Positions 1,659-59,930 of a stretch of 64,000 bases of DNA are shown here, one piece after another. Position numbers and translations under genes: made by a program. Origin of the DNA: Symbiodinium sp. CCMP2592 (taxonomy: Eukaryota; Sar; Dinophyceae; Suessiales; Symbiodiniaceae); the NCBI GenBank assembly GCA_905221615.1, contig CAJNDT010004957.1, positions 528,952 through 592,951 on the forward strand, in the 5' to 3' direction. Under the pieces are notes generated by a model. That model was not told the origin of the DNA. It ran no database searches and worked only from the letters and a program-made list of their open reading frames with translations. Position 1 is the first letter of the stretch, and each line of letters begins with the position of its first letter.

Positions 1659-1752
1659 AAGCCTTGGTCCACCTATTCGGGCTTATAAACCACATCCAGG
1701 CTCATAAACAACGCAGAGCAATTGCTTTCAGCCTCCGGGCGACGCTGCTCAC
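1659..1752 (+). repeat. left terminal inverted repeat of GT1, 94 bp
   Basis: It matches the reverse complement of 29321-29414 at 93 of 94 positions; the one difference is C at 1733 against A. The outer end reads AAGCCTTGG. Inside are two imperfect 14-bp direct repeats, GGCTTATAAACCAC and GGCTCATAAACAAC, 19 bp apart, which are possible protein-binding sites. Confidence 0.88.
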
Positions 1753-3064
1753 TAACTCTGCATGCCAAGCGCTTTATCGATTGAACATTATCCAGCCCCG
1801 GGCTTTTTAGTATTCAGGACTAAGATTCATCCTGCAACTCAAACTCCCGACACTAAAACCTTGCCAACTATTAGCCAGCCAGCCTACACCTTGAAACTAA
1901 GCCAAAAGAAATCTTTCAAGCTTCATCGCACCAATACCCATCATGTGAAACTGACCGGTATCTCATTGTCAGTCTGCCAAGTTGAGGATGCAACCTCGGC
2001 CGCAGGACAGACCCAAGTCCAACTTCCGGGAGCTGTCACATCGGTGCCACGTGCTGATGCACTGAGTTTCTGGCACTGACCGCAATGAGTGGGAACCATC
2101 ATAGTAAAAATGCCTCGCCACTTCTTTTGCAACAACAGTTTTGATAATTTGACAAATTTCCAGTGTGTGGGCAACCGCACACAAGCTCAATGTAAGGATA
2201 ATATCGCAGTCATGGCTTCATCATCTGTCACTCTTCGTGTTTGAGTTTGAAATGTCAGCCAGCATTTCGTGCCTTGAACACATTGCCGAAGTCGCCGCTT
2301 GGCCTGAGCACATGGTTTGGGACGCAGTGAGAAGCACCCTTGTTCCCAACCCTTGAAGTGGCACCGTCTTTATTGTTTTATCCGGCTCATTCCAGTTTTT
2401 GGTTTCTACTAGTTTGATTTGAATGGACAGAACTAGATAGCCTCGTCTAGAGTCTGGATGAATCCACAGAACGGATTTGGGGCCTAACTAGCATTTTTAT
2501 GAACCTTCAGTATGTTGAAGAGGCGAGGCCTGAGGCATTCAATGGGGTTTGGAAAGCTTCGACCATCAAGTTCATTTTCGGAACCTTGTTTCACTGGACT
2601 CCTTCATTTCGGGCCTTCGTAGACGTCGTATTCAGGAATCTAGTCTTGGGGACGATTTTAAGGCAACCCCTACTATACACCCAGAGCTCAGCCTCAAGTT
2701 AACATGGTTATTATATTGGTTGCCGCACAATGACACAATTATTATGAATTACCCAAAATCAACCCCTCAGACCCAGCACACACAACGCAGCGACAGTCCA
2801 ATTTCGAAACGAAGGCATCCACCCAGGACCCAGAACTGAAACACCACGACATTTACTACCCCAACAACTTTAAAGACAACGAAAGCCAGCACGGTCTGTA
2901 TCTCGTCTATTAATAATATTGTTATTATTATTATTATTATTATCTCTCTCTCTCTCTCTCTCGCTCTTCCTCTGGCTGGTCTTTTGCTGCGACCACAGCT
3001 CGAGGAGCTACCATCTTGTGAGCGAGCGAGGCATCTACAAAACTAGAGCACGGAAGCTTCGGAG
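1753..3064. other. non-coding left interior of GT1
   Basis: I see no convincing exon here. An ATT trinucleotide tract followed by a TC tract lies at about 2912-2962. The rest is unremarkable and presumably holds the 3' region of the leftward gene at 4087-3065. Confidence 0.5.
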
Positions 3065-4087
3065 TCAATCATCGGCGACTTCTGCATCATCTTCTTTCTC
3101 CTCTTCCTCTTCTTGTTCCTCCGGTCCTTCCTCGGGTTCGCCGAGATCCTCCGTGTCATCCTTTTCGCCAGCCACATCCCCTGCAGCAGCCGCTGCAGCT
3201 GCTGTCAGCATATTTTCCTGGGCTACCTAATAGCCCAAAACCTTTGAAAGCTATCGGGCAAAGTCGTTATTATCAGTAGCTAGAAGACGAAACGAATGAG
3301 GCCTTAGCATTTTGGACTTTGGGACTGGTCTGTCATGTAGTGTGACCCAAACAACAAGACATCAACGAAAAAATGGCCATGTGGCCACCAAGTCTTTGAC
3401 ACTGTCCACGTCCTTGCCGGCCTCGAGACTCGATCTGGCGACCTCTGCGATCTCCTCTTGCTTCTCGTCTGAGACGCCCTCCCGGACCTTCACCTCATAC
3501 CAACAACAAAACCAGACCCTCATAAAACCTGCTGCCTCAACTAATTTTAACCTAGACCCTATAAGCCCTCCAACTTTAACTTTAACTTGAAACCCAAAGC
3601 CCTTAACCATAAGAGAAAATATAACCCACCTCTAAAACCCTAAAACCCGAGACCCGGAGCAGCATGGGGTGACACGGTGGTACAAAGTGAGTGCTGTACA
3701 ACAAGCTAGATAATGACAGTCAAATCAAGTTGCTGACAAGACCTCGGGCGGATTGCCGCCTTTCTGGGTGCGAAGCTTGATGCTCCATCTCCCTGTTGGG
3801 TACCTGGACTTGTATGCCTTCCGGATCGGAGGCTCCTCCGATGCTGCTGCAGGCCTCTTCAAAGAGTTCTTGCAGGATGGCTTCTTCATGACTGTTTTAG
3901 CCACAGCGTTGCAACCAGCTGCAGTCTTGGCTTTGGCCTTGGCTTTGTTTTTCTGTGTCTGGCACTTGCCACTGGGCTTTTTGGTAACAACTGCTGGCAC
4001 TGGCTGTTCTTCCACAGCCACACTGGCATCATCACTGAGTGCATCTACGGATTGCAGTGTAGCACTGGCCATGATGGCTGGGATCAT
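3065..4087 (-). CDS. Lys/Pro/Ala-rich protein with acidic tail, three exons
   Basis: Exons on the minus strand are 4087 (or ATG 4072) to 3743, 3493-3389 and 3217-3065. The introns are GT-AG and all three exons join in phase 0, giving about 195-200 residues. The N-terminal third is acidic, followed by a basic stretch with KKPSGK, KKPSCK and KRPAAA, then TGRWSIKLR. The second exon is a charged helix-like segment (EKQEEIAEVARSSLEAGK). The third ends in a run of Ala and then Glu/Asp up to TGA at 3067-3065. The KRPAAA plus GxWxIK combination recurs in dinoflagellate proteins of unknown, probably chromatin-related, function; that is recollection, not a search. It is the last leftward gene of GT1. 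Confidence 0.65.
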
Positions 4088-4801
4088 GCCGTGGTCAACA
4101 CGGCGACAGCCAACCCGCCCAATGGGTTTCCCCTCGAACCAGAACCTGGAATGCAAAGCAATGACAAACTGACTCGCACACACGTAGCACCATGCTAGGA
4201 ATTGCAAGCAACAGCTTGACACGAGGCAAGGAGCACTAGATGCATCAATGTGATAAAATAATAGTTTGGCACCAGAAGCATCGAAGCTGCTGTTTCTGAC
4301 TGCTTTCAGCAGCAATCTCCGAGAGCTGACATCATGGGAAGGAGCTTGAAACATAAGGCCGTTAATTTCTCTGGTTGAACCTTGAAAACATGCTGTCATG
4401 TTGGGCGAGTGACAGAATGATGATGGCAATGGGTTTGATATGCACTTAAATCTACTCACTCCTGGACCTTCGCTCTCTCGCTGGAGATGTGACTCTGGCG
4501 GTACATCGCCATCGAGATGACAGGAAAAACTCAGAGTCAGTGACACTGACTCTCATCCACAGGTGGTCTGTGGATCAGTAGCAAATCATCTTAAAAGTCG
4601 AAAGGGCTCTTACTCCTTTCTTTGCATGACTCGAGACTCTACACCAAGCGTGTGGCATGTAGTCCTGGAATCTCAACGGCACACTTGAGGTAGTACTTGG
4701 GTTTGAGCGGTGTGATGGGCGAGGTCGCCGAGTATTCAACCTGAGAGATCAGGAAACCAAATACGAAGCACCGGACCCTAGACCCGGAACCCCTTAAAAC
4801 C

Positions 4802-7800
4802 CTATGGTCTGGCCTCCCACACGGTTGAGCACAGGTTACTCTGCGGCAAGCTCTTGAACTGCCCTGCCAATAGTCCCCCGAATTGGGTCGCACGGGGCTT
4901 CTCGGGATCCACTTGGTTGTCATCTCCCACGGCCTTTGGCTCGAAGCAGTGCACTCGTGCAGCAGAAAGCACTTCGTACCGGAAGGCCTGAATTGTCGAG
5001 TCCTGTTCAGTGACCGTATCTTTGATTGATAACTTAACACGTAGTGTGGCGGCTTATTCTTGGGACAGCGACTTTCAGCGGCACACGAAAAATTAAAACC
5101 TGGTTAGAACAGTTCCACAGTGTGGGGGTTAAGTTTCTGGCACTGCCTACAAGTAAGCTAGGCCTTCACATCTTAGTTTCTCACTAAGGGCAATGCAACA
5201 TGGAAAGCAACAACATCGTTAGCGAGATGAAGTGCCAACAACACCGCACACGCCGAGCACCAGAATTCCACCCGAGAAACAAGAACCGAGTTCAACACTA
5301 AACGTGACAGACCCCACGGCTCCTCATTCATCTTCGGCTTCAACTCATGATCGACCAGGGTCATCTCCGTCAGCCCGTGGCTCGTGCACAAATCATGTCC
5401 AATCATGGACAAGCAAGTCGCCTTCTTCGTGATTGGGCTGACTGATTTGTCCACTGCAATCATGACTTTCGTGTCCACCTCGACAAGCCACGGGATGATG
5501 TCGTTCGTGGAGCTGCGGGCGGTGCCTGCCCCAAGTATGCTGACTCATTGAAAGCCCGCTCTCAGACTCCCAACACAATTTGAAACCCTCAACAATGGAA
5601 CCCTTGTGCCTGCCGGTTTCTCCACGAAGCTCCCCAGCCCGAAGCCGAAGAGCTCGCCCCCGGCATTCACAGAGATTGTATCCTCGGTCCTGTTCATCAA
5701 GAAAAGCTTCTTCTTGTTCGTCCATGCGACTGTGATGTTCGCGTTCATAGCCGCGGGGCACTGCATCAGAATCCTGAGTGAAACTCGCTGCAACAGCCAG
5801 CAAATGATGGTGTGCCAGTGAACATCTCTTTCACACACTACACATCATAGTGTAATCAAGCAACTTACATATAAATACATTATTAAACATACATAATAAA
5901 CATGTGCATGTGTAGCATGTGTGTGTGTAAGTTTGAACATACAGTAGTTACGGTACGGCATAATGGAATATAATCTTTAGATACTAATATTATCATAACA
6001 CAACATAGTACTCATAATATTGGGAAAGGATCATGTGATAGGAAATAATATACTTTAACACAAAGTGGCTACGCCACAACCGCAGATAAGCACAAAGCAT
6101 AATCATAAAATACATGTAATAATGAAATGAACCGAATAAGTCGACATGTGACAACCATACATCCTGTGTTCTACAATAAATAGATGTATACAACATATGT
6201 ACTTTATGATATATTGCATTATATGTTGTGGTTATGGCAGCTAATGAACTGAACTCGTAGTTGATACGTGGACCTCCATCATTTCCTCCTGGGCAGCGGC
6301 CGTTTCCAGCCCAACCCATGTGATAACTGCGAGAACTTATGTGTTGATGCTATGGATACAACTGGACAACTTATTGAGCTTACAGCTTTAACTTCATTTT
6401 AAAACTAAACCGTACACTAAACCCCGAATCCTGCGGCAAAGTGGCTCTGTAGAGGCCTCGAACTCATTGATGGTGAGAAAGTCGGGCTCCCATTTCTTGC
6501 CCACGTTGATGTCAAAAGCCTCCTCACTTGTGAAGTTGGGTCGGGCTTGTGTTCTCGGCCTGGGAGACGACGGGTCTCCGCGAGCTGAAGGCCGTGGTGT
6601 GGCGGCTTCTCCGGATCCAAGATACGTCAAGAGCTTCGCCTTCTCCTTCTCGAACGTGGAGATGAGCTCTTGGACTGGCTGCATGTAAGTGCCCAATGTC
6701 TGTTTCACAGACTCAGGCAGCCTGAATCAATGAAATGTTTGTCCAGAACTTTACAAGAACTGATCGTGTGGGACCAAGCGAATAGAACAGACAAGCGACA
6801 CGAACCGTCCGTCCTCACGGGCGAGGACTGTCAAGGCCGGCATCTGAGGTGCGGTTCCGGTGTTCGGGCGCTGCTTCGGGCCGGCCTCTGGAGCGTTGTC
6901 CCACCACTCCTGCACAGGACTACTTCGTTGATATAATGGTTCCAACTCACGGGGACTTGGGAGTGCTGCAGGAATGCTCTCGAGTCTCACTAAGGCCCAA
7001 GTGCAATAATAATAAATAACTAACCTTCATCCTTACCTCATGCTCAGGACGCCAGCCAAAAAACGGAAGGCCGCGAAACCGCAAGCCGCATAAAATATTA
7101 TTATCAGCCTTGAACCTGTAACCCTGAAAGTCAAACTGTTAAACACAAAGCTCAAACTAAAACCCGTAAGTCAAACCCCTGTGCAATCTCAGCCTCTTAT
7201 GAGTAAATTTCGGGACGGCATTAGGTCTTTAAGCATTTATTTAGTAGCTGCTTTCTGATGAATTGCAAATTGCTGAGAAAGGTCGGCACGGATGACGCCG
7301 GCCATGGACTTCCGCTTCCACTCCACATCCTCGAACGAGTAGTCCGCCTCTGAGTGACAGGCCAGGAACCTGTAGTCCACACACTGTGTGTTGGGCTCCG
7401 TCAGCCCTTGCTTCTGCATCGCCCACATTGCCTTGCCGACCTCATTGAAGCTGAACCTGCACGAAGAACAGAATCCACGAGGATGGCTTTAAGTTTCTTA
7501 AGGCCTTGGGTTGTTTCGACAACTCACAGCTTAGTATCCTGCCTGCTTGGACAGAGGTCAATGACTGTGGCGTTTCCGGTTGCTGGAATATCCAAACCCT
7601 GCAGCAGGCCGAGGATCATCTTCTTCGTGGACTCCACACCTCGCTGTGCGGCCTTAGCGACTTAAAAAGTGGCAGGTGAAGTTGCTTGGCAAGGCCTTTC
7701 ATCATGCAGCATAGGAGCTCGTTGAGTGGCCGAAGGGGGGCTCTCGGTCTCGCTCAACAATTCCGACACCCGGGCCCGGGGCAACGGTCCCAAGATGCCA

Positions 7801-7922
7801 CAAGCAGCCTACACGGGATCAGCATCCGACAAAAATGACAATGACAATGTCAATTCCAGGCACCTGCGACTTCCCGAACATTGTGCCAATCCCAGCGGTC
7901 ATCTTGTTGGTGCAAAGCCAAC
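4802..7922 (-). other. exon group 3 of the very large protein (C-terminal part)
   Basis: Exon 7922-7864 ends G and joins TC at 7660 to form a codon. The 7660-7528 exon (LLQGLDIPATGNATVIDL) ends CT and joins G at 7456. Next are FLACHSEADYSFEDVEWK (7456-7252, GC donor), RELEPLYQRSSPVQEWWD (6978-6802), a coiled segment STFEKEKAKLLTYLGSG (6711-6420), KKLFLMNRTEDTISVNAG (5787-5610), DTKVMIAVDKSVSPITKK (5518-5309) and VHCFEPKAVGDDNQVDPE (5040-4802) before TAG. The joints after 6420 and 5610 are not resolved. Confidence 0.55.
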
Positions 7923-10900
7923 CTGGGGATCAGTGAGTTTCTTGGCATTGAACGTGGTTTGGCTTAGGATCCGTATGCCAGGCTGCAGAGCTGGGAGCGT
8001 TTGCGTTTGTCGCCGCCGTGCCCACTGTCTTGGAACGTCAGAGAAACCTCCTGATAATCAAAGTGCCTCGTTGCCACACGTGGCTCAGACTTTACTTTGC
8101 TTTTCAACACATTGACATATTCCGATCTTAACCCTGTTCCTACCTAGAGGCTCATACCCTACCCCTTTTTTATGGCGCCTACTTTTTGAGATGATAACAA
8201 ATCCTAACCATAAAACTAGGTACTCTAAAAAAAGGGGTAAGGTATGAGCCTCTAGGTAGCTTATGACCCCACACGTGAAACTACTATCCTAACCTTCATA
8301 ATTAAGTACGGTGTCATCACTCTAACTCAAGTCTTGACGAAGGGAACATTGCCATGTAGTACTCAAATTTAAAATCTATCATAGACAAGTTGCAACAGCA
8401 GCTTCTCAAACAGTAGCTTGCGGTGTGTCACTACGCTTGCCCCGTCAACCGACCCATACGACACCGGCAGGAGCACGAACAGAGCCGACTCGGGGCTGTG
8501 GGTCGAGATGGACTTGGCCGTCTCCACGGCCTCGTCGACCAGCATGCCTCCTCGGATGGTGTTACTGTGATTAAAGGTCGAGTTTACTGTATTTTTACGT
8601 TTTGGGTTTAGGGTAGTTTAGGGCTTAGCTTCCGCGGACGGATGTCTATCATTCTGAGCAGTATATCTGCTATACACCTAATTGATTCTCAGGGCCTGGG
8701 GCAGAATATAGGTTTCTTGCAAATAAATCCTAAGAAGCCTAGGAGCTGGAGGGCCAAACTGTCAAGTCCAGCAGCATCAAAGTGACCAGGGGCCTGCATG
8801 AGGGTTGCAGTGACAACTACAACCAAGAACCTACAACCAGGGAACAACCACAACTGCCACAAACAAGCACCACCGAAATCAACAACGACAACAAGAAGCC
8901 CGCAGCACCGGCACCACTAGCACCACTAGCAACAAGGCAGCAACAACAAAACAGGACATACTACTTGTGCTGTCTCAGGACTGTGTCTCGGGGCCATGCT
9001 CCCTCCGGTGCTGAATCAGATGGCTGCTCATGTCGATGATGGAGTTCGGAAACAAAACGTAGAGGTGGTTGGCCGTGGACCACGTCTCGATGGCCCCAAT
9101 GCCCTTCTGGTGGCGGACGTGCAAGTACTGCAGGTCGAGGGCACCCTGAAGAGAGGTCCCAAAGACTTAGAGTAATAGGCTTGGACCCATAGTGCCACTT
9201 TGAGCTGGCTTGAAGGAAGGCCTGCGGTTTAAGTCGCTATAAATCTGTATTGGTGGGGTTGAAACCAGTTGCTGGGCCTGCTTCAGGCTTCTGTCCATCG
9301 ATTCCATCGCATACTTCTCCACAGTTTCCAGGTCATTGGCGACCTTGCTCTTGATCTGCTCTCGGGTGGCGATGGCCAGGTTCGCGGCCAGCCTGAAAAC
9401 AAGAATGACCCCCCTCCGCGTTTTCTGTAACTCCACTGTAACAGTGACAGCTGCTAATAATTACTTGTTTAGTGAATCCCTGGAGCCTGCAATCAGTCTA
9501 AACCTGGCCCTGCACAAAGCCCTGAAGCCCAGACCATTGAACTAAGAAACCAGGAGCTAGGGTAGGAAGCTTGAAATAAACCGGAAAACCCATAGCACGG
9601 AAGCCTTGCAAATTCTGGGCCTGGTCTGTTACTTTAAGCACGACGAGTGTATCCCCTAAAGTGTGAAGCTTAATAAGTCTTCAAAGCCAACCGCTCCGAG
9701 TAGCTTCTCGTCAGCTTCAGCCTTGACCGTGTCCACCTGACACCAGAAGTTCAAAGCAGAATACTCTCCCTTATTAGGGCTTAGTTTGGGCGAAGTTGTC
9801 AAGTATTAGGCAGTGTGAGCCATCTTGTGGCAAAGTATAGGCAGGCCTGCTTCTGGAACTTCACAAGGCAGGCCCGAAAGATCGACACCCGAGCGAGGTC
9901 TGCTGGAGGCACGCTATCCGTCATCAGAGCCATGAACTCCGCATCGGCGTGCTTCGCAAGAAACCTCAGATTCAGCTCATTATGTTGGGGGACTGGTTGG
10001 CGGACGGGCGGGCTGGCAGGGTGGCTGTTGCTCCTGGGGTCGTGTGGGGCAACAACAGCTGCACGATGTCCAAGTTCGGTCTCGGTGCGCTTTCTTCAAC
10101 AGCGGCACCTCTTTCAGCACGAAGTCCTCGGGGAGCTTCTTCTGGAGCTGCTCCATGCAGTGGACAAACAGAGCCGCCGCCTTCTGCAAAGGTTCCTTGC
10201 ACGTTTGGAGTGCAAGTTTCATAATGGTGTGATTGCTAGGTTTCGCGAGGATTGAGGGTTTTGGTTGCCAATAGGGATTACGGTTGAAAATTTAAGGTTT
10301 AGGCTGCAAAGGTGAATTGCATTTGATCCAGTACATTTGTTATATTGAATTTAATTTGCTTTGTTTCTACCATAAGCCCCGAATCACTAAAGGAAGTTAA
10401 GTTTCCCTAAACCCTAAACCCTAATAAACCCTAAACCCTAAAACCTAAACGTTAGTATGAGCCCCGACCCCAAGCCCTGGAATAATAATAAAATCAAATA
10501 GTTGTGTATTTACTCCCTGAACCCTCAACTAAATGCCTCAATGAAACCCGTCACTGACTTCTCAATTCCAATCCAAGGGGGCCAACTCCCTTGTCGTCCA
10601 TGGTTTCCTCATTTTCGAGTGCACATTCTCATAGTCGTGACGCACCCGCTGCATCAAGAAATCCAGCACTTCGGTGGTGTTGCCCAGCGTTTCCGCCCAC
10701 GCTCCAGCTGTCGACGGAACGTACCCCGCCGAGAAAAGCCCACTTGCCAAGCTCTCGTGAGTGATGAATCGGAACATTGAGTACTTCCTGCGGCATAATG
10801 AGCTTGGGACCCTCTAGTTCGAAGCCCTCCATTGCTTCTTTAGCTTAGTTATGAAAGCCTGTGATTTTCAATCCCAGCCCGCCCGCCTGACGAGCCTTAG

Positions 10901-14480: not shown

Positions 14481-14483
14481 GTT

Positions 14484-14563
14484 TAGGGTAAGAGGTTTAG
14501 GGGTTTAGGGTGCAGGGTTTAGGGTGGTTTAAAACTCAGTGTTTATGGGTCTAGGGTTTAGGC
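14484..14563. repeat. degenerate TTTAGGG array
   Basis: Several GTTTAGGG-type units follow directly on the 172-bp repeat block. Confidence 0.6.
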
Positions 14564-14589
14564 ATGCGAAGTGCTCCCATAATACTGAC

Positions 14590-15680
14590 TGTCCTCAGTT
14601 CGGGGCAGAATCGAAAAGAAACCCAGCAACAGTTGAACCCAGCGACTAATGACCTCAACAATCGTGCACTGAACCTGAAGAGATGACACCAACAATCGAA
14701 GGAAATCATCCTGATCAATTGTCCCAGGATACCTGCAACGGTAACAACGATTTTGTGATCGTGCCGAAGTGACTAGAAAAGTCATAAATTGAAAGTGCCG
14801 GGTTGCGGCCGCCGATCCAGCAACCTCAGTTTTGGAAGGCTACGGGTCATGAAACCAACAATCGAGGGACATCATTCGGATCAGTTGCCCCAATGGAACC
14901 CGGCAACAAAAATTTTGTGATCCCCGCGAACAACCAAAGACAGACAGCCACAAAACCTAACTGCCGGCTTGTTGTGACGATCATGACACTACCTGCTCTA
15001 AGTTAGGGAAACCATACGGATCAGTTGCACCAGCGGAACCCGGCAACAACGATTTTGTGATCAGAGGGAACTACCCAGGTCACAAAAATGAAACTGCCGG
15101 GTTGCACCCGCCAACCCGGCAACCTCAGTTTTGTGATCAGGACGGGTTGCCATGATCAGAAAACTGAGGTTGCCGGGTTCCAAATTATTGAACTGAATTG
15201 ATAATAGTATGATTTGTGATCAGAGCGAACTACCCAGGTCACAAAAATGAAACTGTCGGGTTGCACCCGCCAACCCGGCAACCTGAGTTTTGTGATCAGG
15301 ACGGGTTGCCATGGTCACAAAGGCCCGTGTTGCCGGGTTCCAAATTATTGAACTGAACTGATAATAGTATGATGCCAGTGCCCACTGTTGCTGATCACAA
15401 ACCCACCCTTCTAGAAGCAAGCTTCGAGCACAGAACCATCACCTCTGAGGCCACGGCGCTTTCTGATCAGCAGGGCCCCCCATGATCACGAAAGGCAGGC
15501 CTGGGAGGTGGCAAATGAGCATGCAGGATATTAGGGAGGTGCAACAAATGGAATCACAGTCCCAAACCCTGGGATTTGTGACCATGGGAGGGCTCCGTGA
15601 TCAGAAATGGCAGTGTGATTCCAGGCATTCATTTTGTGATCAGCAGCGTTTTGCGAAGCCCTCGATTTGTGACTGACTGG
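14590..15680. repeat. GATCACAAA-rich repeat block with a 159-bp tandem unit
   Basis: Two adjacent near-identical 159-bp units begin at 15054 and 15213. Each contains inverted modules built from TTTGTGATCAG and GGTTGCCGGGTT. Looser copies of the TGTGATC module continue from about 14620 to 15675. It looks like a small satellite built from inverted submodules. No coding signal. Confidence 0.7.
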
Positions 15681-16062: not shown

Positions 16063-17403
16063 CTACGGAACTTCGACTGTGGTGGCTCTAAACGCTTCCT
16101 CCACTATTTCGAGAGCTCTAGCGATAGGCACACCGGCCGCCCAAAGTTGAGCTGCTGCCTTGTGCACATGATGGCTTCGTCTTCGGATCTTATACTTGTC
16201 CAATGCCCGGCGGTCCAAGCGGTGGCTTTCAAGCCGCAGCTGATTCGGGACCTGGCACGCTTTCATGGAAGACATTCAATCTCTGCTGGTTTTGGCGCGA
16301 CTGTCACCTTACAAACTACTACCTTTCAAGCCATTGATTATTATCTTAAGTACTAAGCATCGAACCGGATCGAAGTTCACACCAGGAGCAGCTCCAGCTA
16401 AACCTCGGACACCACGGCCGACTGCTGGCCCTGGAGCCGGAAGGAACCTCAACTGCCACGGAAGACGAGTTTGTTCGCGAATTTACAGTGTCAGCCTTAC
16501 GACTGCAAGCGAGCAGCCTCCCTAAAGATAGAGGTGGCTCCTTGTTCACGTCCCCATTTGCCAGGCGGCACAAGTACTCCGCGACATGGTTCAAGTCGTA
16601 GGGAGACTGTCCTGAGCGGTGGCAGGCTCAGGCTTGCTTCTTACAAAGTTTTAGACTCCAACTTGTAACCCCAGAATAAAAATCAATACAATTCCCAAGC
16701 ACCGTTGCCCCGGGCTATTGCATCCCAGCCCCGGCCTAATCAAGTTTCAGACCCTGAACCCATCCCAAGGATTGAATTACGGCCTTTCTCGAATAAAAAA
16801 ACCTTGAACGGTTCAAAGCCCTGAACGTAATAATTCAATGCTAACTTTACTCCTGAGCGTTACTAATTAATTCGAAAACCACATGACTGCCTAAGACCAT
16901 AGGGTAGTAGCAATGTTGAATTTGGAGCTAGAGTGAAACTTCATAGGTTGCAGGCTTACTCCCTTTCTCTGCGAACAAAAGCACCTCGAGCCCGTTATTG
17001 TGGAGGGTTTCCTTTCAGGGGTTTCAAGATGGCTGCGGCGGCAGCTGTAGCGAGAGATTCGTGATGATGTTTGAAACTGAGCGGTTGCAACCCTTTGAAA
17101 TAATAATCAGACAAGGAAACTTATTATACTGGCCTGAGCTGCCTGCAAACAGTGTCCCACCGTGACTGGCAAACCAAATTTTAAATCAGGCTGACATGTA
17201 CTACTTCATGGACTGCCACACACCACAAACATTGACGGGGGCATGTACTCAGCCACGAAAGCACAGACACAGTCGACATCACACTGCGAACTCAACCCTA
17301 AATTCGTTACGTCCCACATGAATCCATCCCGGGCTCGCATGATGGATGCATGCTTGCGCCAATGCTCAGCAGTTTTAGTCTCCAGCGGACGTGGCTCCGC
17401 CAT
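16063..17403 (-). CDS. small basic protein of unknown function, spliced
   Basis: ATG at 17403 starts a 31-codon exon (MAEPRPLETKTAEHWRK) ending at a GT donor at 17310. A second recognisable segment, about 16607-16480, reads DLNHVAEYLCRLANGDVNK. The last exon, 16251-16063, is 63 codons with a TAG stop and is rich in Arg/His/Ala (KYKIRRRSHHVHKAAAQLW). Intervening exons were not resolved, so the total length is uncertain. I recognise no family. It lies between the DUF7869-like gene upstream and a repeat block downstream, in the same orientation as the other GT1 genes. Confidence 0.45.
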
Positions 17404-18029
17404 TACTGCCAGGGGAAGTCAGCACTTGCACTTAATAAAAGGGAATTGAGTAGCACTCCAATCTGGAGACAATCTACATCGACCAAGTCTGTGATTGCAC
17501 TGATGACATAAGCACTGACAGACCTTTTATCATGTTGTAGTAGTTATATGATCAATACTGCTAAGATTCTACTCCTGCTACTACTACTACCACCACCATG
17601 CACTACTAAGACTACTACTATTATTATTACTACGACTACTTTACATTGTTATTCCCTTTGGTTGCTTGGAGTCCTCATACTTCTTAGCTTTGTTTTATGA
17701 TTGAACCTTAAGCTTTAATGCAGCAGCACACAGTGGCTAGAAAGTCACAACAGTCAAACCAGAGCCTTCAGGAACAATCCCTGAAGAAGCCAGATTGGCA
17801 GCCACGCTCTGCGGAAGGTACCGCAGGACCCGACCGTTGCCATCCCAATCCTCATTTTGCATCCATTGCTTCGTCCTGGGGACACAGCATTTCTTTTACT
17901 TCGAGGTCACGAGACCGGCTTCCCGACACGGAGTAGGCTGATTGTTGCTAGTATATTACAAACAAATCTCAAGAAGCTGGAACTTGCTGTAACTTTCCGT
18001 TCAAGGCCACATGCCTCGTAGCTGCAAGA

Positions 18030-20880
18030 CTAAGACAAGACACTCGGGGGTTTATCAGGGTAGTTTGCATCACTCATTCCCGTCCTGAGGACAACATCCC
18101 CTGGGCTGAGGGCCACGTGTTGGCGGTCCCAGTATGCGTTGTCAATCAAGTTCTCGTCCACTTGGCCTTGTCATTCTTGAAAGCAGTAGCCCTCGACCCT
18201 GAAGTAAACTTGATCCCACACTGAACGTTCAACCCAGAACGTTGAAGCCTCAATCCTCTAAATCTGCCTGCATTGTAAATTTGTGCCTGGGCCTGTGGAA
18301 CTACGGAAAAGTTCACCGCTTACGATCTAGGGTTTCGGGTTTTAAGGTTTAGGGTTTACGTTTAAAGCCTTATTACCCTGGGACCCTTAAACCCTCTACT
18401 GTGGCTTGTCAGCTGGCCTCTGAGGTCCTGCAGCCTGTCCAGTGCAAACACGTGTGGTGCACCTGCACCACCGATGCCAACCAGTTGGCAGCCCCATGTG
18501 GCAGAGTGCAGGAAATGTTTCCTGAGTGGATGACATGTAAAAACAGGCGACTCAGACTTGAAGACTCACAAATAATCTTCCCGCGAGTTGATCCGGGGGG
18601 TCGTGGGTCGTTACATTGTTGCAGTACTAATAAACAACGCTGAGAGATTGCACAATAGAGCCCAGAATCCAGTCCCGGACCTGCTCTAGCCGCACGACGA
18701 CTTTCTCACGTTCGTGGACTCTGACCTGCCGAACAGTGAGTCAAACAGACATGGCTGGCAATGGGCTGAAGCCTGGCAATTGGCAGACCACCTACTTTGA
18801 ACGACTAATAAGTAGATGAGTTTGACACCGTGGTCAGATTGTCGTTTAGACTTTAGGCTGCTCCGAGCCTGAGGCTGGTCGAGGAACGCCTGCAGCTTGT
18901 GGCGGAAGTCACATGGCAGGTGGAGCTCGTTGTTTTCCTCCAGCATTGCGGCCACGTGTCCGAAAAAGCCATCCACGTCCTCGTGGCTATGGCCACTTTG
19001 AAGAAAGCGTGCTTCGGCTCGCCCGACTTTCTTGGCAGCAACTAGTGCAGCGAGGAGTCGAACTATTGTATTGTTCTTCGACTCTCGTGCCGTGTTGTCT
19101 GCCTGGCACAGGATCTCGCACTGTCTGAGGTCTATGCCGCTCTCGGTCAGCCGGCCCAAAGAATGCAAGATAATGTCTGCCATTGCACTTGAATCTTTGC
19201 ACACCCACTGCTCACTCGTGGCGAGGACGACGGTATGGCCGTGGACAATGCAGGCGACAAGCTCAATATTCGGCCGTACGAAATTACTGAACTCTTTCGC
19301 CTCCATAGCCAGCGACCTCGGCCATCGGAATTTGGATTTATCCATTCCGTCCACGATAAGGCAGATCGTCTGGTAGCCATTGGTGCCAACCGCTGCTGCT
19401 CTGCTCTGGGCTCGTGCTTTCCAATATACAACACGATCGTTGTATTGTCTTCGAAGGTGCACGTTGTAAAGCTGCATTTGAGCAGCATGTGCTACACGGT
19501 CCCGGCTGAGCTTCTTGAGGATGGCTTTGTGGCGAACACAAGTGTTGCACTTACCGTGCGCCGAGTGCTCCCTGATGGCCAAACATTGGTGGAACGATTG
19601 TCTCCAAACCTGGCTGATGCAACAATAATCGAACCGACCTGCTGGTTTAGAGTCTTATTTCACTGCTGCAAAAGAATCCACTGATTATGTGCAAAGGTGG
19701 CCCTCAACGTCCCGCTGAGAGTTTATCCGAGGCTTCAGCCCTGAATCAATCCGACAATCGAAATAAAAATACTGTCAACTTCCAAGCTGCTAGGCGGAAA
19801 AGCTTGAGGGACGGCGGCGTCTCAGTGCCCACCATACGTGCCTTCATGAGGTTGTGGTAGTCCTTGAAGGTTCCAGGTGGAAGGTACCGCATCTGGCGAA
19901 ACCGTGCTGGATCGCTGCTTCGGGCCAAACCTTGCTGTTCTGTGGCCAGCTTGGGCCTCCGTCCACGATGCCGGCGAAACCGCATAGCTCTGTGGCCATC
20001 AGTGAGGGGCTGGGTCCGGCCGCCTCTCGAGACAGTCGGCATTGGCTCCGCACACTGATCGTACTGTTCCTGGAGGAACTGGGTAACCAGGCCCCTCTGC
20101 TTGAAAAGCAGCTGTCTGGAAATGCCGCCCATTGTAAACTTTTGTCCCACAAAGCGGCCGTCTACAGGACAAGGTTCGGAGTTCAGAGCTGCCTTCCGCA
20201 AAGTCCGGAAACGAGTGCTTCCAATCCCAAGCAAGATGCGGAATGCATAATGACACACATCACGCCCGAGGAGCTTCCGCTGACGTGTTGCCAATGCAGC
20301 TCGGCCGACGCAGCCGGGGCCCTGCAGCATATCAAAAACCTGGTGGTTGCACGATGACTGCAGAAGGTTCAGATACTAAACTCATCCTACTCTAAACAAC
20401 AAACTAGCATCATACCCTCTAAACCCTGGACCCTTCCTCTGACCTGTCCGAACGAAATAAAACTCTAAACTACCCCTGTTAACTTCATATCTTTAAAGTT
20501 TCAAGACTCCAAGGAACTTTCTGGTCCGCATCCCGCTTGTCCAAAGTTTTCAACTCGCAGCGCAGGTCCAGCAACTGCTTCTGTAGTTCCGGAGGCTGGA
20601 ATTGTTGTAAGCAGTTCTTTCTTGCACGACATCTGCAGGCCTTTTGAACAACTCGGCCCAAACGGCTTCGCTCTGAGTCGAGCACTATGCGAAGCGCTCC
20701 GGCCTTCCGCTTTCTTGCAGAGGGCTTCGAGCCAGAAGCAGGTTCCGAAGCCGATGGCCTCACATCCTCGTCATCCGACAATGTGTCGACAGCATGAGCC
20801 CGCACGGGAGGAGCTGCACATGGCTCCTCGTCCGACAAGCCAACATCACCTTGCAGCATGGAGCCCTGCCATGCTGCCAA
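18030..20880 (-). CDS. DUF7869-like RNase-H-fold protein, candidate GT1 transposase
   Basis: Exons with matching phases are 20880-20518, 20339-19791, 19609-18827, 18725-18670, 18521 to about 18405, and probably about 18167-18030 (TAG). Introns are GT-AG (178 bp), GC-AG (181 bp), GT-AG (101 bp) and GA-AG (148 bp). The N-terminus is acidic with DTLSDDEDV, then CRCRARKNC. The second exon has LLGRDVCHYAFRILLGIG. The third has a Cys pair (CNTCVRHK) and the core: Asp in IVDGMDKSKF, Asp in QADNTARESKN and SGHSHEDVDGFFG. Then come VRDWKHFL (spanning the GA-AG intron) and IGGAGAPHVF. These three acidic/His motifs are the DUF7869 signature, related in fold to DDE transposases. No reading-frame damage is visible. 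Being the only nuclease-like gene in GT1 makes it the best transposase candidate; that is inference. Confidence 0.75.
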
Positions 20881-23150
20881 GTCAGATGGTTGGCAGCAGC
20901 AGCTTGCTCAGCAATACGCTGCCATCGTGCCGTCACCACGCAGAGGACTTGGGACTGACTGCTAGAACCATACGATGCAGAGTACTGTACTGACTATCAA
21001 AACCTTCCTGCAGTGTTTAGCTGACGTGCTATAGAATCCAAGTCTCTCGGCCAGAATGACATTTACGAGATTCGGCTATCAGTTTAGCTAAGTAGATGCA
21101 GCTCAACCTGTCACTAGTGCTCCGACAACCTACACACTGTCCTATCAGTAGCACTTCTACGGTGCAAGATAATAAGCAACGAATGTCAGAAGTGATTTGG
21201 CCTTGTGACAAACGGGACTTGAGCAACAGAACTTGACTGTGAGACCGGGCTGATTGAATCCACATCCCTCCCGCAACTTCTCCAAGGGCCTGAGCTAATT
21301 TAAGGTTGGATAGGAGAATCAAGGGGGTTCAGAGCTGATCAGTGGCTTCAGTTGAGTTTCGCATGCCAATCATCAACTAATTTAATTTAACTTCCCAGTT
21401 CATGTTTGTTGTGCTCTGAACGAAAGGATGTCGTTGAAACATGACAATGAACAACATATACGTACAAAACATAGACTAGAAGGTAACTGTTCACATGACA
21501 CAAATTACAACACATTTAGCTTATTATGCACGACGGAACAAATCTACTACACCTTTAGTTTATCGATCTACTCTGTATATAATATGCTGATAGTCAGTAT
21601 ATAGATGGTCACACATAACAACAAGTACGTATTGACTAAAACTGACTATTTGTAAGGAATATACTACACACACTATATAATATGCAGATATATTAAACAA
21701 ATAAATAATCACATACATTTACGACCCCCGATGGCTGCTCAAGCATGGATGAATGACTGTTGATAATTACTTTTAGATGTTGTTGAGACTTGGACTCCGT
21801 TTCTGGTTCCACCGCAGTGATAGGTTGCCATTGTGCAATCTACGAACTCTATGCTGCCCGGGTGGCTAACTTGGAACTTTACACGTCGTGTCAACAAACA
21901 CACTGGAGCTGAGGCCTGCTACACTAATGATTTCCCTAGCGCTTCGTCCCAAATAGCCGTAAGTCTCAAACCTGAAACCTAAAATCCTGAAGCGACCTGC
22001 CGAACCAATACCAACAACAGCCCAAAGCCTATAAACCCGGCACACTCAGACACTGAAACCCAGATCCCTAACCCACAAGTCTTCCTGAAACCTGAACCTC
22101 AATCGCACAAGTTCCTGTGACCGTCCATAATGACATAAAACCCGAACCCACCTGACGTGCTGAAACCCTAAATCCTGGAACCTATATGGGCACCTTAACC
22201 CTGAGCCTTAAGCCGGAATCACTGACACCCAGAACACTTAACCCACAAAAAACTTTGAACCTCAAACTGGAACCTAAAGTGGAATTGTCCTACGACTGTA
22301 ATCGCTTGCTTAATCCCAGCACCCCACCTACCTGGCCTGCTGGAACCGACATTACGTCCCAAGCCTACTACCCTGAACCACGATCATGGAAGATGCCCAG
22401 AACCCACCAGTGAACTTGAAACTTGACCAAAACCTGCAAATCAAAACTTAAGCCGAAAACCCCACCTACCTGGCTGGCTGAGCCCCAAGCCTTGCAATCT
22501 AAGATATCCTCAAACCTGAACGACTCTGAACATCACCAAGAACTGAACCCTTAACCCACAAGTTGATTGAATGTCAACCCTACACTCATCAAAAGCGCTG
22601 CACACTGAGCATCAATGCTGAATGTGAAGGAACCGGAATCAAAAGCCAAACACTGAACCTTAAACCTCAATCTCGCCTTTTACTTGGCCAGTTACTAATC
22701 GTTACTTTCGCCATTGTCATTCTTGTTGCTACTCAAGAAACTGCATTTGAACGTACTAAATGCGAGCTAATGCAATAGCAATCGAAATTGCCATGATGAC
22801 ATGCTCCTACACGAGAAACTCACACTTTCTCTCGCAGTGTCACATCCTCCAGGCTCTGGCGAGCTGTTCTAATCGCTGCTAGTCACCATCATGATGACAT
22901 CGAATCACATCGAAGGTGCTCCAAACAAAACCCGACACGATGACGTCGAATCGTATCGACCGCCGTGCTCCAAACACAATCGGATGCCACGATGAGCCTG
23001 GCTTGGAGGAGTGAGTGTTGCATGTCAGGCCTGCTTCCAAGTCAGTCCTGCCCAGCATTGGAATTAGTGAGTAGTGGTTGACATCGTATTTCCAGCAGGC
23101 TCAACATGAGCATCCTGCGGCAGGAACCCTCAAAACTTCCGACCGCCACA
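20881..23150. other. intergenic stretch inside GT1
   Basis: It holds the putative 5' region of the DUF7869-like gene. An AT-rich part lies at about 21400-21720. From about 21970 to 22680 there are repeated CCTGAAACC/CCTAAA-like words. About 22800-23060 contains short repeats of ATGATGACATCGAATC type. No exon is supported. Confidence 0.4.
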
Positions 23151-25266
23151 CTACTGTGCAGCATGCTGATGCAGCAGAAGATGCATTGCCATTTGGGCTT
23201 GCTTCGGGAAAACTATGTTGCCCAAGGCCTTCAGCCGGAGCTTGTCACCCATCGTTTGCGAGGCTGACAACCAATCTTTCAGGGCAGGCTTCGTGCAGGG
23301 ATTCCACACCCTTGAGGCATTCTCCTCGGCCTGCTCTTTCGTAAGAAGAGCAATCTCCACTGGGAATTTGGTGCCACGCTTCATGGCCAGAAAGAATGTC
23401 CGGCCGCGATACACCTCTGGCCGTTGCCCATCTACCCCCAACCGTACATTATTTGACACTGACACAAATCGACAATGACAGGTCTTTCGTTCTGCAACAA
23501 GACTTCAAAGATTGTAACCCAAGCCTAGCTAGTGGTCACGCTATTGATGTTGCTTGTTAGTGCTAGCAGAGATTGAAATGCCAACAAGATCCGGGGTCCA
23601 TTAAATTTAAACCCTGAGTCTGAACAAGCCATAAACCCCAACACCCTGAACAACTCCGAACCCGAAGACCTAGGCTAACATTAACACTGAAACCTGAACA
23701 ATAATCAGCTCTTGACGCTGAGATCTTAGACTCCTTGGACCCACAAAAAATGACTCAAGCATCGAACCCTCAACTGCCATTAAAAAAACGCAGTCTTGCA
23801 GCCTCGCAACCTGAACCCCAACGTTGCTGGCGGCCACCGTCACCCAGTGCACGTCCATGTCGCGGCGGTTGAACTCCTGCAGGCCAGAGGTCCAATCCCT
23901 CGACTCGACGGTCATTCAAGTCTAAGTTCTTGTCACTCCAACTCAAGCGTGCATCGGACAAGCAGCCAGTCAGTTACCACACCTCGAAGAGATGCTCAGC
24001 TAGGTCCCGCATCTCGTGCGACAAGATCCCCGCCACGTTCTCGAGGAAAATGAAATACCTGAGAAATGACAAGTCAAGGGAGGGCTCATTTGGCTTAGGG
24101 CTCAAGGGTGTAAAGCTTTAGGGCTCCGGGTGAAAAGTTAAAGCCTAGGGGCTGAGGCTCCCTAATGCCCACGAATAATAATGAAATGTAGAAAGTAACT
24201 GGCAGCCAGATGACAAGCCACAACAATTTCTGCTTGAGCCTGCTTGATCCAGACTAAGAAAAACTAGCAACAAGTCTGCCAGTGCAAGGTCACCTGTCGT
24301 ACAGTGATTCTAAACAGCTGCTCCGGTACGCAGTCGGGCAAAGATCGTATACACGAAATACGTGTGATACCAAACCAGTTCGGCTATCGTCTCGCCCGGC
24401 TTGAAGGCCCGACCGTGACACTCCTTGACACGGGAATCCCGCTACGACTCCCTGAGCAAGCCCCTCCACAGGATTCGGAGTGAAGGTCGCTACGTCGCGG
24501 TAGGTGGTTGCACCCGGGGCAAGGCCGTCACGGATCCTGCTGCTGATTACGTCGCGGCAGTAGGCATCAGATTCCACCTGACGTCAAGCATTAAGCTGTG
24601 CCACCCAACATCAAAATGCCCAAGATGGTGTTCGGAAGTCGATAGCACTTACATTACACTTCGTGCCAGCCAAAAAACGTCATGCCCAGGATCATATTCG
24701 GCACCAAGGACAATTACAATATTGTGAAGAGTTCGCCGCTGCATTAAGTGTGCCACCCATTAGCACAATGCCCAATGCCAAGATGGTGGAGCAAGGTGAG
24801 AGGCGATTCTGATACAGGGTGCAGTTAATCACGATTCCTTGTGCCAACCAACAGCAATGCCCAAGATGGTTTTCAGCAGTAGACAGTGAGACAGACAATA
24901 CAGCGTGCAATTAGTTCGTGTTGTGTTAGCTACAGTACAGTAGCAGAGTACTTCATGGAGAGCTTGAGCCTTATCACCCTTAGGTTACTCAGCACCTAAT
25001 TGCAAAGAACATACTATTCTCCCAATTCAAGCCTAAAGTCGAAGCATCCTTTGCTCGAGCAAGAACTTCAGAAGGCAACCCAGCCAAACTAAGTTCGGCA
25101 CGTAGCAGACAGGCTTCACGAACCTAGGATGAACTTGGATTGGGTTGAAGCCGAGCAGCTACTGACTGGCTTAAATGTGATGGAAAGTGCAGCCGTTCTG
25201 GGCCCGGCACTCCTGAATCCCGAGTTCCAGCCCAAGCACTCCTGTGAAGAGTGAGATGATCGGCAC
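23151..25266 (-). CDS. C5 cytosine DNA methyltransferase, spliced, all core motifs
   Basis: The enzyme would methylate cytosine at C5 in DNA using S-adenosylmethionine. Exons are 25266 to about 25208 (motif I, ISLFTGVLGLELG), 24577-24294 (VESDAYCR, then motif IV GFPCQGVS with the catalytic Cys), 24058-23983 (motif VI, FLENVAGIL), 23876-23817 (motif VIII, VHWVTVAASNVG) and about 23431-23151 (FFLAMKRG, then motif X ALGNIVFPKQAQ), stop at 23151. Introns 2 and 3 are GT-AG with exact phases (AG plus G makes an Arg codon). The first donor must be GC or GA. The last joint is unresolved. The core is about 255 residues with a short recognition region, closer to bacterial-type enzymes than to large eukaryotic DNMTs. 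N-terminal exons may lie upstream (27-28.5 kb). It is a plausible self-methylation or silencing-escape factor of GT1; that is inference. Confidence 0.82.
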
Positions 25267-27030
25267 CTGCAAACAATGCGAAGAACTCAGGCCTAACTCC
25301 GAAAAGACAGCAAACGTCTTAGACATTAAGCACGAAGGTCTGGATAATAAGCCAACACCCTGAACCCTGCAAAAACGCCAAAGCCTCAGAATCTTAATTT
25401 GAAACCTAAGCCGCAGCCGCAAAATACCTCAAGACCCTCACCAGGTTAGCTTCTGATTCTTTAGAGTTGCAACCCCCCCAAACCGCGAATGCCTTGAACC
25501 ACCAGCCTCACAGCCCGAAACGAAACCGGGTATTGTTTGAGTACGTGAGTCTAAATTTGGTGGAAACCTCCAATAGTCCATCATTCTAAATACGAACATA
25601 CCCTAGCCAGCCGGACTATTCAATAGGCAGATTTAACCTAAACTTCCCAAGTCCTTCAATAACAGCCAGCTCAATAATCCAAAGAAAACTTGAATCTTCA
25701 ACCTTCGCTGCCCGTTTGAGCTGCAATGGAACACCACAGAGCCGTGAACACTCCAAGAGCACAAGTGGGAAGTGAAGCTGAAACACCTTTGAGCCCTTAG
25801 CCTTAGCTTTCATCCTGAAGCCCGAAAAAACTTTTCTTACCAACTCTTCCATTCTGAAACTCTACCCCTTTTGCCCCAAGCCCTGGACCTTCGATTTCTG
25901 TTTCCAAACTTAACCCCAAAACCCAAAGCTGTTATCCCACATGAAGACTTAAAAAACCCGGGACGTATGTTAGGCGAACGAACTGATCATGTGGCCTTGG
26001 CGTGGCTGCTGGGTGGAAACAATCGATTGAAGATCGAGCTGTCCACCGTTCCAGCTGCAGGCTGGGTCCATCCGGCTGGCAATCCTGTGGCTGCAGGAAT
26101 TAGCCCGACCCTATCTTAAACCCTACACCCTAATAAGCCCCAAGCCCTCTTCTAATTTTGAAAGCAGTTAACTTGACCACCTGCAAAGTATTCCCCCAGC
26201 TGCGGTGTCAAGTACCTCCCTTTGGGTGACCCAGACTTCTGGCATTCTGCAGTGTAACGATCCCACCAAAAGATCTGGTTGGCCAGATCCTGCCAAAATA
26301 ACCAAGAGCCATTGTGACACTGACATCTGCAAGGCTTGAGTCCTTTAAGGTTATTAGGGGTTTGGGTTTAAGACCTTGAGCTTTGCCTGACGCCCTCGAA
26401 GAGAGAGGTAGCTGGTATTCGCTGCAGAAGTGGAGCCGAAGCATCCTCGGCATAATCCAAACTTTGAGTCCTAATTGATATTGGATGTCGTATATTATAG
26501 CATACAAATACTGAATGAATAATAAATAAATCAGAGTATAATACACATGTTAATTGCGGTGAATGACCGATCTTATTCAATGTATGGGCCGTTATTGAAC
26601 CGCCTTCTTTCCCGTGTTTGGTTTATCATTCGGATCCTTAGGGGTGTAGGGGGAGGGGGGGTAGGGGGCCTTAAGGCCCATAATAAGGACTAATAAAGCC
26701 TATTTACAGAAATATAGTCCCCTACACCCCTGCCCCCTACACCCCTAAGGATTCCTATGAGTTTACTAGCCAGGCTTTAGGCTCTCTCATTCGCTGTCTC
26801 CACGGATTCCTTGATTGAAAATGTCTATGGATTTGGACTTGGGAACAAGCGGCCTGGCCTCAGACTTGAAAGTACTTGGAAGGTGGTCTGCGGAGCCCCG
26901 GCTGCAAGTATGGTTTTTAGCCAAGTTTTAGGCACTCAACGGATAATACACTGACCACTGACTACCATGTTGTTATCATTTGTCTGTGACAGTGAACAAG
27001 CATAAATATCAGCATCGGAATCAGCATTCA
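25267..27030. other. stretch with no resolved exon
   Basis: A GC-rich patch at about 25980-26110 could be a leftward exon (TQPAAGTVDSSIFNRLF) but lacks a partner. The remainder is low in coding signal. It also contains the foldback element at 26632-26755. Confidence 0.3.
26632..26755. repeat. foldback (MITE-like) element, G-rich ends
   Basis: The left end GGATCCTTAGGGGTGTAGG and the right end CCTACACCCCTAAGGATTCC are inverted copies. The centre is about 80 bp. No coding capacity. Confidence 0.7.
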
Positions 27031-27084
27031 TCCCCGACTCAACTTGCCGCTGAATGGCTCAACGTCCCCCATGTATTGAGAATG

Positions 27085-28447
27085 CAAGGGCCTTCAAGCA
27101 TCTTGGTTTTGGTCTCCTTGTCCTTCTTGACACCCTTCTTGGCCTTGCCACCGTTGTTCTTGGGAGGCACCTCGACTCGCCAAGCAGGGCTGCAAAACAC
27201 ATGGCGACATAATGTACGACAACGATGTACTAGTAGTGGCATACAGCAAGTCAAGCGCAATGCAAGTCTAGCAGTCTAGCAGCAACTGTCATCTGCAAGG
27301 GCGGAGCTGTCGGCAAGGCGAACGGCGCAGAAGTAATGCCTTTCTCACCATCCACGAGGCGGTAGCCGAACTTGGGCAGGCTTCCGCGAGGCTCGTCGTC
27401 CTCTGCCTGGCGCTTCAACTTCAATGGTCAAACTCGAAATTATTTACTCATAGCAGCTGTCATAACAGATCCGGCTTCTTCGGGGTCAGTCCCATGTCAA
27501 TGCTGCAATGCACAAGTTTGGAGCAGCTCCGCAGAAAAGCTGGGTGCAGTGGCCTCCTTCGTCTGCATGCCACTGGAATCTTGGCAGCTTGACCTGAGCA
27601 TAACTTTGCAGTCAAGCATTGGGTTGACACCGGGCTTCGAAGAGACTTTCAAACTATAATCAAAACTTAACTTGTGGCCAAATTTAATTTCCCCGATGTG
27701 CCACATTGAACTCACCAAGTATGGCAATGAGGCCTTCAGCTGATTGCTCGCCCTACAGCTGGAAAGCAAACTTCAACCCGAATTGCAGAAATCCGGCAGC
27801 AGGAACTCTCAAACAAACTGACTGGCAAAAAGCTAGCTTTCGCGAGATAACCTTTCAAACCTAACTTTCATACATGAAGCTTAACTGACAACTAGTTTCA
27901 CGTTGACCAACACACCATGGACCGAAAGACTGCAATAGGTTTATGAGACACTACCCATACATCTGAGACCGCAGCTTTCGCTTGACTGGCCGGGCAACAG
28001 CCTGCCATGGAGTCCAATCAATTGGACGTCTCAGCCAGCGGTTTTGTTATTTTCTTGAACGGAGCAATGCATGTGTGTTAATTCAATCCGCACCTCATCA
28101 TCGCTGAGAGCGGTAACGTTGCGGCACCTCTTCGACATCGTCCCAAGGATCCTTCGGAAACGGATATTATGAACAATATTAAATATATGACAGTGAGGGT
28201 TTAGGGTGCAGTTTGACAATGGGCAGACAGGACTTGATATCCATTCAATGAACGAGGAGTTGAATCTTGAAGCCTCGCCGTCCCCAAAGCGTCCCACAGC
28301 ACGTTTCAGGCTTCTCGCGAGCTGGCATAGAATCTGCGTTTTCAACCTCGATCAACCCCCTCCAACCCTCTGGCAGCCCCGGCTGGTCCTCTGGCAGTTG
28401 CACTGGAAGCCAGAAGCACAAATCACACACGACGTGACAGCCAAATG
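27085..28447 (-). CDS. cluster of leftward exon-like segments, product unknown
   Basis: About 28447-28245 reads WLPVQLPEDQPGLPEGWRG; an overlapping second frame (SLKRAVGRFGDGEASRFNS) also looks natural, so the true frame is unclear. A short exon 27754-27715 (GEQSAEGLIAIL) ends in GTGAGT. Exon 27418-27349 (EDDEPRGSLPKFGYRLVD) ends in GTGAG. About 27193-27090 gives a Lys-rich segment (KKGVKKDKETKTK) but does not join in phase. These may be the N-terminus of the methyltransferase gene or a separate gene. Confidence 0.4.
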
Positions 28448-29320
28448 CTGCGAATCGTGAATTGTGAATTCAGGATCAGGGCTCAGCAGCTAAGACCAAC
28501 TCGGCATCTGTCTTCAATCAAGCTTTCGACTGCTGGCACTGCACTCAATGAGGCCGCGGCTCATCTGATCGGCATCCACCCCGGAGCAGGGTTCATGTTG
28601 TAAGCTTGAAGGCTTTAAGGGTTAGTTGGTGGCTTGAAATTTTACGGGCTGGGTCTTGGGGCTTACTGAACCTAGTGCCATCTACAGTGCTGGGTCAAAA
28701 TCTCCCAATGGTGCATTACAGCACAGAGCGTACATCCGAGCCTGCTGCTACTCTGCTGAATCTGCGTTTTCAGCGGCTCTCATAGATTTCAGACAGTGAC
28801 AGACTCTCGCAAACACTCCAACTGACACCCTCTTCGTCCCAAGGCTTCTAGCAACTCTTAGCACTATACCGGTTTGAAATTATTGTTGCTCTGGGTGAGT
28901 TTCAATAGCAAGCTTCTCTGGCCTGGTCTGCATTCTTCAATAATCATTGATCGTCATATAATGACTCAACCTAGAAAGCCTTCAGGTCTCCAGAGACATT
29001 AAAATTTCAATTCATTATTCACACAGTGGACAGAGATATTTCCTCCCGAAGCTGCCTACACGGAGCAATTAACAGAACCGGAAAATACACAACACGAACC
29101 ATATGCGACGAATTGGCAACATGTCAGTGATCATAATATTGCAGCGAAATCAATGCGAACCAAAAATAAGTAATTTGCAGCGTTGCTAAGACAGTAAGAT
29201 AAGATTATTTTTTCTCGGGGGCTGCCCGAACTGCGGCGTGGAGGGAACAGGTCTGCTGCTCCGGAACAGGAGGGAGCAACAACAAACGATTCTGAAGGCC
29301 ACCAACCTCATGCACATTTC
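28448..29320. other. right interior of GT1 without coding signal
   Basis: No exon or strong repeat is seen. If the leftward genes start near 28.4 kb, this stretch holds their upstream sequence. Confidence 0.4.
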
Positions 29321-29414
29321 GTGAGCAGCGTCGCCCGGATGCTGAAAGCAATTGCTCTGCGTTGTTTATGAGCCTGGATGTGGTTTATAAGCCCGAATAG
29401 GTGGACCAAGGCTT
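29321..29414 (-). repeat. right terminal inverted repeat of GT1, 94 bp
   Basis: Reverse complement of 1659-1752 with one mismatch. Its outer end is at 29414 (ends AAGGCTT). An apparent in-frame start at 29401 falls inside this repeat and so is not a native start. Confidence 0.88.
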
Positions 29415-59878: not shown

Positions 59879-59930
59879 GCGTTCGGCGAGGCCGACCGCT
59901 GTAGCGGACTTTGTGAGGCGGGCGGCCCTT

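Follow-up and report, generated by a model that had tools for sequence, protein, structure and literature searches.

Within a 64,000-nucleotide stretch of the Symbiodinium sp. CCMP2592 genome, which we refer to throughout as the window, a 27,756-bp segment (positions 1659-29414) is bounded by inverted ends of 106 nt that are 96% complementary. We hold with considerable confidence that this segment is a DNA transposon of a DUF7869 group, inserted in a retroelement and carrying a C5-cytosine methyltransferase gene of a kind linked to DUF7869. DUF7869 is a Pfam family that has no stated function. The likely transposase belongs to this family; a preliminary description of the sequence could place the element in no class it could name.

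Inverted ends and an empty site

The left and right ends, aligned and counted by eye, are identical at 102 of 106 positions and at 93 of the outermost 94. This recount reproduces the 94-bp inverted ends of the preliminary description and extends them. The sequence GGTT lies directly outside each inverted end, as had also been described. When up to three mismatches were allowed, the first 20 bases of the end matched two sites in the window, which are the two ends themselves, and two matches occurred in none of 100 shuffled controls. Two direct sub-repeats, GGCT(T/C)ATAAA, are found inside the left end at 1680-1689 and 1699-1708, and these are possible transposase-binding motifs.

The segment splits an open reading frame (ORF), and fusing the flanks with a single GGTT gives an open frame of 1030 amino acids; the remaining two downstream frames at the fused junction reach stops after 14 and 41 codons. 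We searched for an empty site with the right-flank frame as the sole query, which avoids an artificially joined sequence, and recovered nine homologs. Left-flank sequence is also present in five of the nine (P0025-P0029), and in all five the left part occupies the residues up to n, and n+1 is the first residue of the right part, which leaves zero gap. The other four homologs are too short leftward to cover the insertion point. Because the left and right parts are contiguous in these five proteins, the extra sequence consists of exactly the insertion and a single GGTT, and the restoration of one frame proposed in the preliminary description holds. Its names for the two sides (RNase H and oxygenase) were not confirmed by profile, as neither flanking frame has a Pfam match.

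Paired inverted termini therefore sit at the insertion boundary, accompanied by a short target duplication (GGTT) and an empty site, as in a cut-and-paste transposon bounded by terminal inverted repeats (TIRs). We conclude that this element, which belongs to the nuclear genome of Symbiodinium sp. CCMP2592, inserted into an older retroelement there. Together with the transposase fold predicted from its interior (see below), these observations bear out the earlier proposal of a giant TIR-bounded DNA transposon.

Searches of the 1.098-Gb assembly, where the window occupies C4881:528952-592951 and in which all match counts are lower bounds, returned at least four matches to the 106-bp end: the two described here and two on duplicate contigs (98.9% identical) of one further locus. 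At that locus the first 50 bp of the end are 86% identical (C4778), and the two ends are paired in inverted orientation at a distance of about 2 kb; both begin AAGC, and CTAC flanks the pair on both sides inside a CTA microsatellite. This locus is probably a non-autonomous relative. The preliminary description would have been undermined by other copies of the end that never occur in inverted pairs, which is not the case, as the one further locus found is such a pair.

The DUF7869 gene and its relatives

We scanned the interior of the element with Pfam in six frames, with X at stops and cut-offs of E 0.01 or 0.05. These scans detected DUF7869 and a C5 DNA methylase, both on the minus strand, and nothing further to those cut-offs, although short exons can escape. 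The DUF7869 match lies in ORF 18686-19654 (E 6e-19; 68.8 bits against a cut-off of 26). Donor sites of the spliced gene model are GT or GC, and its first three exons are 97-100% identical to a deposited Symbiodinium sp. CCMP2592 protein (P0001). A homolog from a metagenomic contig (P0004) aligns to exon 18502-18410, and a Cladocopium homolog (P0002) aligns to 16615-16511 and 16449-16075. Because these two homologs match extra exons to about 16075, the deposited gene model is probably incomplete at its 3' end.

The predicted core of DUF7869 adopts an RNase-H/DDE fold, nearest to the Mos1 and Metnase transposases and to retroviral integrases in a list produced by VIA-align, where absence of a fold does not amount to exclusion. 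This predicted fold and the invariant acidic residues of the family are the two features, and the only two, by which we would place DUF7869 among the DDE/D transposases. Pfam recovered DUF7869 in nine of nine family members and no mariner DDE family among matches to E 1. For CACTA/CMC, Sola, Ginger, Academ and other eukaryotic superfamilies, the same Pfam comparison gave a weak match to Transposase_24 (E 0.07) in one of the nine members. Three PDB matches to the DUF7869 alignment at E 0.5-0.9 were dismissed as chance, and IMG/VR protein searches and an exact-end scan gave no relatives. Based on the structural prediction, the DUF7869 protein is likely the element's transposase, and the family would represent an unclassified group of DDE transposons, probably an undescribed superfamily. 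Such a protein would bind the terminal motifs, cut the element out and insert it at a target site cut with a 4-bp stagger.

When the DUF7869 alignment was searched against prokaryote genomes, matches were found on eight contigs (L001-L008) of one 'Trichormus' metagenome-assembled genome (MAG), a cyanobacterial entry (uncultured Trichormus, ERR2144891). Since L001 has two tRNA-Thr genes within a repeat cluster and L002 has a Gypsy integrase, recognised by its zinc-binding domain in Pfam at E 2.1e-23, we take the MAG to be contaminated and the eight contigs to be probably eukaryotic. Pairwise alignment revealed separate copies. Those that retain both ends (L001, L002 and L008) measure 6.0-7.8 kb, and their inverted ends are 33-37 bp long and begin AACA(C/T). 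By eye, seven right ends (L004 excepted) stop at about one point and their flanks differ. The L002 element lies inside the Gypsy integrase with AACA on each side, and excision of the element plus one AACA mends the frame. The MAG elements also contain a second ORF, of 566-594 amino acids in four of the eight loci (L001, L002, L003 and L005) and as a 278-amino-acid piece in L008. This ORF has no match to the window at E 1e-2, and the two copies scanned have no Pfam match above cut-off; a Pox_Ag35 match in the L001 copy (E 7e-4, below cut-off) was judged to be low complexity. Because these related elements are 6-8 kb long with a different second gene, giant size may be peculiar to the Symbiodinium lineage.

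A methyltransferase gene linked to DUF7869

The methyltransferase gene is located upstream of the DUF7869 gene on the same strand. Its spliced model is open throughout and encodes 255 amino acids, with exon borders, the last included, chosen by hand and an N-terminus that may be incomplete. Pfam DNA_methylase (PF00145) matches at E 6.6e-19 over profile positions 3-153 of 324, and the C5-methyltransferase motifs PCQ and ENV are present as FPCQG and LENV. The closest solved structures are M.HaeIII (best, E 1.3e-9) and M.HhaI, and a protein search found nine relatives, seven at 35-38% identity and two at 30%. We conclude that the gene encodes a predicted C5 enzyme of bacterial type.

Across the assembly, DUF7869 has at least 79 matches (76 outside the window) and the methyltransferase has 43, of which 39, at 35 loci, are outside the window. 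The methyltransferase lies no more than 10 kb upstream of a same-strand DUF7869 match in 33 of these 39 matches and at 30 of the 35 loci, compared with a chance expectation of about 3.5e-4 per locus. In upstream DNA of four divergent DUF7869 paralogs, three (C261, C2336 and C5197) have a methyltransferase within 2 kb on the same strand. Seven of the linked loci do not belong to the near-identical family described below; however, two linked loci, C118 and C1269, score identically to the unlinked C994, and the three may be mutual copies. The genome-wide linkage argues that the two genes form an old module rather than a chance capture here, and from these sequence comparisons we conclude that the predicted transposase-methyltransferase pair is a conserved old module in Symbiodinium. 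The preliminary description had referred to cargo, and the cargo does include a C5 methyltransferase, one that adjoins DUF7869 genes elsewhere in the genome too.

A near-identical family of DUF7869 and methyltransferase genes occurs at C4890, C1112, C402, C4967 and about 20 further places. At least 24 places are 99-100% identical over a 150-bp piece, and 21 loci, the reference counted, extend up to 3.9 kb at 99.3% identity or more, which suggests recent spread or duplicated contigs. An apparent shared end at C4890:565249 proved to be an assembly gap, with homology continuing into repeats. Another candidate, C5118, is a fragment with 90% identity over part of the catalytic exon and no end copy in the 9 kb examined.

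How the enzyme might act is less certain. It may mark element DNA or mask cytosines in the element ends, and such methylation may tune transposition, or escape or exploit host silencing. That the methyltransferase serves the element's own biology, by methylating its ends or chromatin and so controlling transposition or silencing, is a tentative proposal to which we give slightly less than even chances; alternatively, the gene could have been captured and retained for the benefit of the host, or its product could counteract silencing. We lean, with modest confidence, towards a broader model in which DUF7869 defines an undescribed eukaryotic DDE superfamily with 4-bp duplications, ranging from dinoflagellates to at least one distant genome, and in which long pairing with a bacterial-type C5 methyltransferase in Symbiodiniaceae would have produced giant self-methylating transposons.

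The features of the element and its flanks are collected in Table 1. The element also contains a tandem duplication of 159 bp and two inverted repeats that resemble hairpins (15024-15373, 26626-26760 and 8140-8259), all of them possibly small nested insertions. Downstream of the interrupted frame, ORF 31909-34521 (plus strand) encodes an RNA 2'-phosphotransferase (Tpt1/KptA, PF01885, E 2.2e-9). Short interstitial telomere-like CCCTAAA arrays occur in the window at 10405-10450, 35193-35326, 41364-41513 and 62251-62332.

Table 1. Positions of the element, its predicted genes and the interrupted frame in the window
Feature	Position	Strand	Basis or remark
Target-site duplication GGTT (4 bp), left copy	1655..1658		sequence
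Target-site duplication GGTT (4 bp), right copy	29415..29418		sequence
Left TIR	1659..1764	+	begins AAGCC
Right TIR	29309..29414	-	102/106 identical to left
Left half of split retroelement frame, 311 amino acids	726..1658	+	copia-type RNase H end by eye; no Pfam match
Right half of split retroelement frame, 719 amino acids	29419..31578	+	no Pfam match
Likely transposase gene, DUF7869 (PF25273), main exons	18627..20859	-	splice model, Pfam, P0001 match
DUF7869 gene, exons	20859-20518, 20339-19791, 19609-18869 (catalytic core), 18725-18627 (tentative)	-	splice model
DUF7869 gene, likely 3' exons	16075..18502 (18502-18410, 16615-16511, 16449-16075 region)	-	homolog matches
Predicted C5-cytosine DNA methyltransferase, six exons	23151..25266	-	spliced model, Pfam DNA_methylase
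Methyltransferase, exons	25266-25211, 25123-25102, 24577-24330, 24058-23983, 23876-23775, 23414-23151	-	donors GT, acceptors AG
Third predicted gene, many exons, low confidence	3401..10156	-	home-made splice/coding model

Alternative explanations and known systems

The element could be real and DUF7869 a passenger or accessory gene, with the ends moved by a different transposase supplied from elsewhere. The TIR sequences of the MAG elements are unlike those of the window element, and the mobilising enzyme might be held by the third predicted gene. The model for that gene, trained on the 64-kb window itself, has up to 15 exons and extends from 10156 to 3043, with the 3' end least certain, and it has no Pfam match up to E 5. 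However, DUF7869 is the gene that the MAG elements share with the one in the window, its predicted core matches known transposases, and the X-filled scans detected no other transposase, though one in short exons may escape. We consider a passenger role unlikely. An endogenised virus or a Polinton-type element is a still weaker explanation, and we regard it as very unlikely. The size, the inverted ends and the bacterial-type methyltransferase would suit it, but both identified genes are split by introns, the 4-bp duplication counts against it, and the six-frame scans revealed no capsid, packaging ATPase, protein-primed polymerase or rve integrase, a negative that introns weaken. An assembly chimera or insertion by a route other than transposition is highly improbable even in an assembly with gaps and duplicate contigs, given the exact 4-bp duplication, the inverted ends precisely at the break and the zero-gap site in five of nine homologs.

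Several results weigh against a DUF7869 transposon with a linked methyltransferase. A PDB sequence search with the DUF7869 ORF gave no match, our first full-length structure model of the protein was poor (predicted local distance difference test score, pLDDT, 60.5), and Foldseek found no match to that model at E <1e-3. The methylase match is confined to the N-terminal half of its profile, and the last exon border was picked by hand. The L001 and L008 elements have both ends and lack a duplication, and L008 carries a disrupted DUF7869 ORF. The search for further end copies with 4-bp duplications, suggested in the preliminary description, was productive in part: it returned the paired locus and no second full-length element. 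One large element alone is thus known with these ends, the other locus being the ~2-kb pair, and because the CTAC flanks of that pair fall in a CTA repeat, the duplication there proves little. Inverted ends of the near-identical family were not found, nor were any present around paralogs C261, C5197 and C2336 in the stretches examined. The closest paralog, C4961, has no methyltransferase in 8 kb upstream, and five of the 35 methyltransferase loci are without DUF7869 linkage.

The name DUF7869 was absent from the open-access literature searched, in which titles and the starts of abstracts described no DUF7869 element and no DNA transposon of dinoflagellate chromosomes that carries a C5 methyltransferase. 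The very large genomes of dinoflagellates contain many genes to which no function has been assigned; if our interpretation is correct, the DUF7869 genes here, with at least 76 matches outside the window, would be transposase genes. It would also make it possible to test directly why mobile elements have captured, more than once, the very enzymes with which their hosts silence them.

Among known systems, Tc1/mariner transposons (Mos1, Metnase) resemble the predicted DUF7869 core, being among its nearest solved folds together with retroviral integrases. A TA target duplication is the mariner hallmark, whereas the duplication is GGTT in the window element and AACA in L002; the nine DUF7869 members lack a mariner Pfam family to E 1, and the window element is 27.8 kb long with introns. 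Teratorn and other giant eukaryotic transposons are likewise very large DNA transposons, but Teratorn is reported to be a piggyBac-herpesvirus fusion, and no viral genes were detected in the window element. According to Bao and Jurka (2013, PMC3627910), Mariner-1_OLpv of a phycodnavirus is a DNA transposon that, like the window element, has a C5 methylase next to a DDE transposase, and the role of the methyltransferase in viral mariners is largely unknown. It differs in its viral residence, its endonuclease gene and its mariner transposase (PMC3627910), whereas the window element is located in a nuclear genome and has another transposase family and spliced genes.

SymbioLINE-Dnmt and SymbioDIRS-Dnmt3 are described by de Mendoza (2018, PMC5890265) as LINE and DIRS retrotransposons of Symbiodinium with C5 methyltransferases. 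The same paper states that Copia elements of Symbiodinium lack a methyltransferase domain. A second large retroelement in the window (44792-59941, minus strand) has an RVT_2 reverse transcriptase in ORF 51933-54794 and, in ORF 54581-59941, a stretch that looks, on inspection by eye, like a degenerate C5 methyltransferase and has no Pfam match; if real, this stretch would qualify the published Copia statement (PMC5890265). The window element, if correctly interpreted, would add DNA transposons to the methyltransferase-bearing mobile elements of Symbiodinium, which in that account are so far retrotransposons. The window element and the published ones are all mobile DNA of Symbiodinium with a C5 methyltransferase, but the published elements are retrotransposons, with SymbioDIRS-Dnmt3 placed within eukaryotic Dnmt3 (PMC5890265), whereas the window element is a probable DNA transposon with a predicted methyltransferase closest, among solved structures, to M.HaeIII and M.HhaI.

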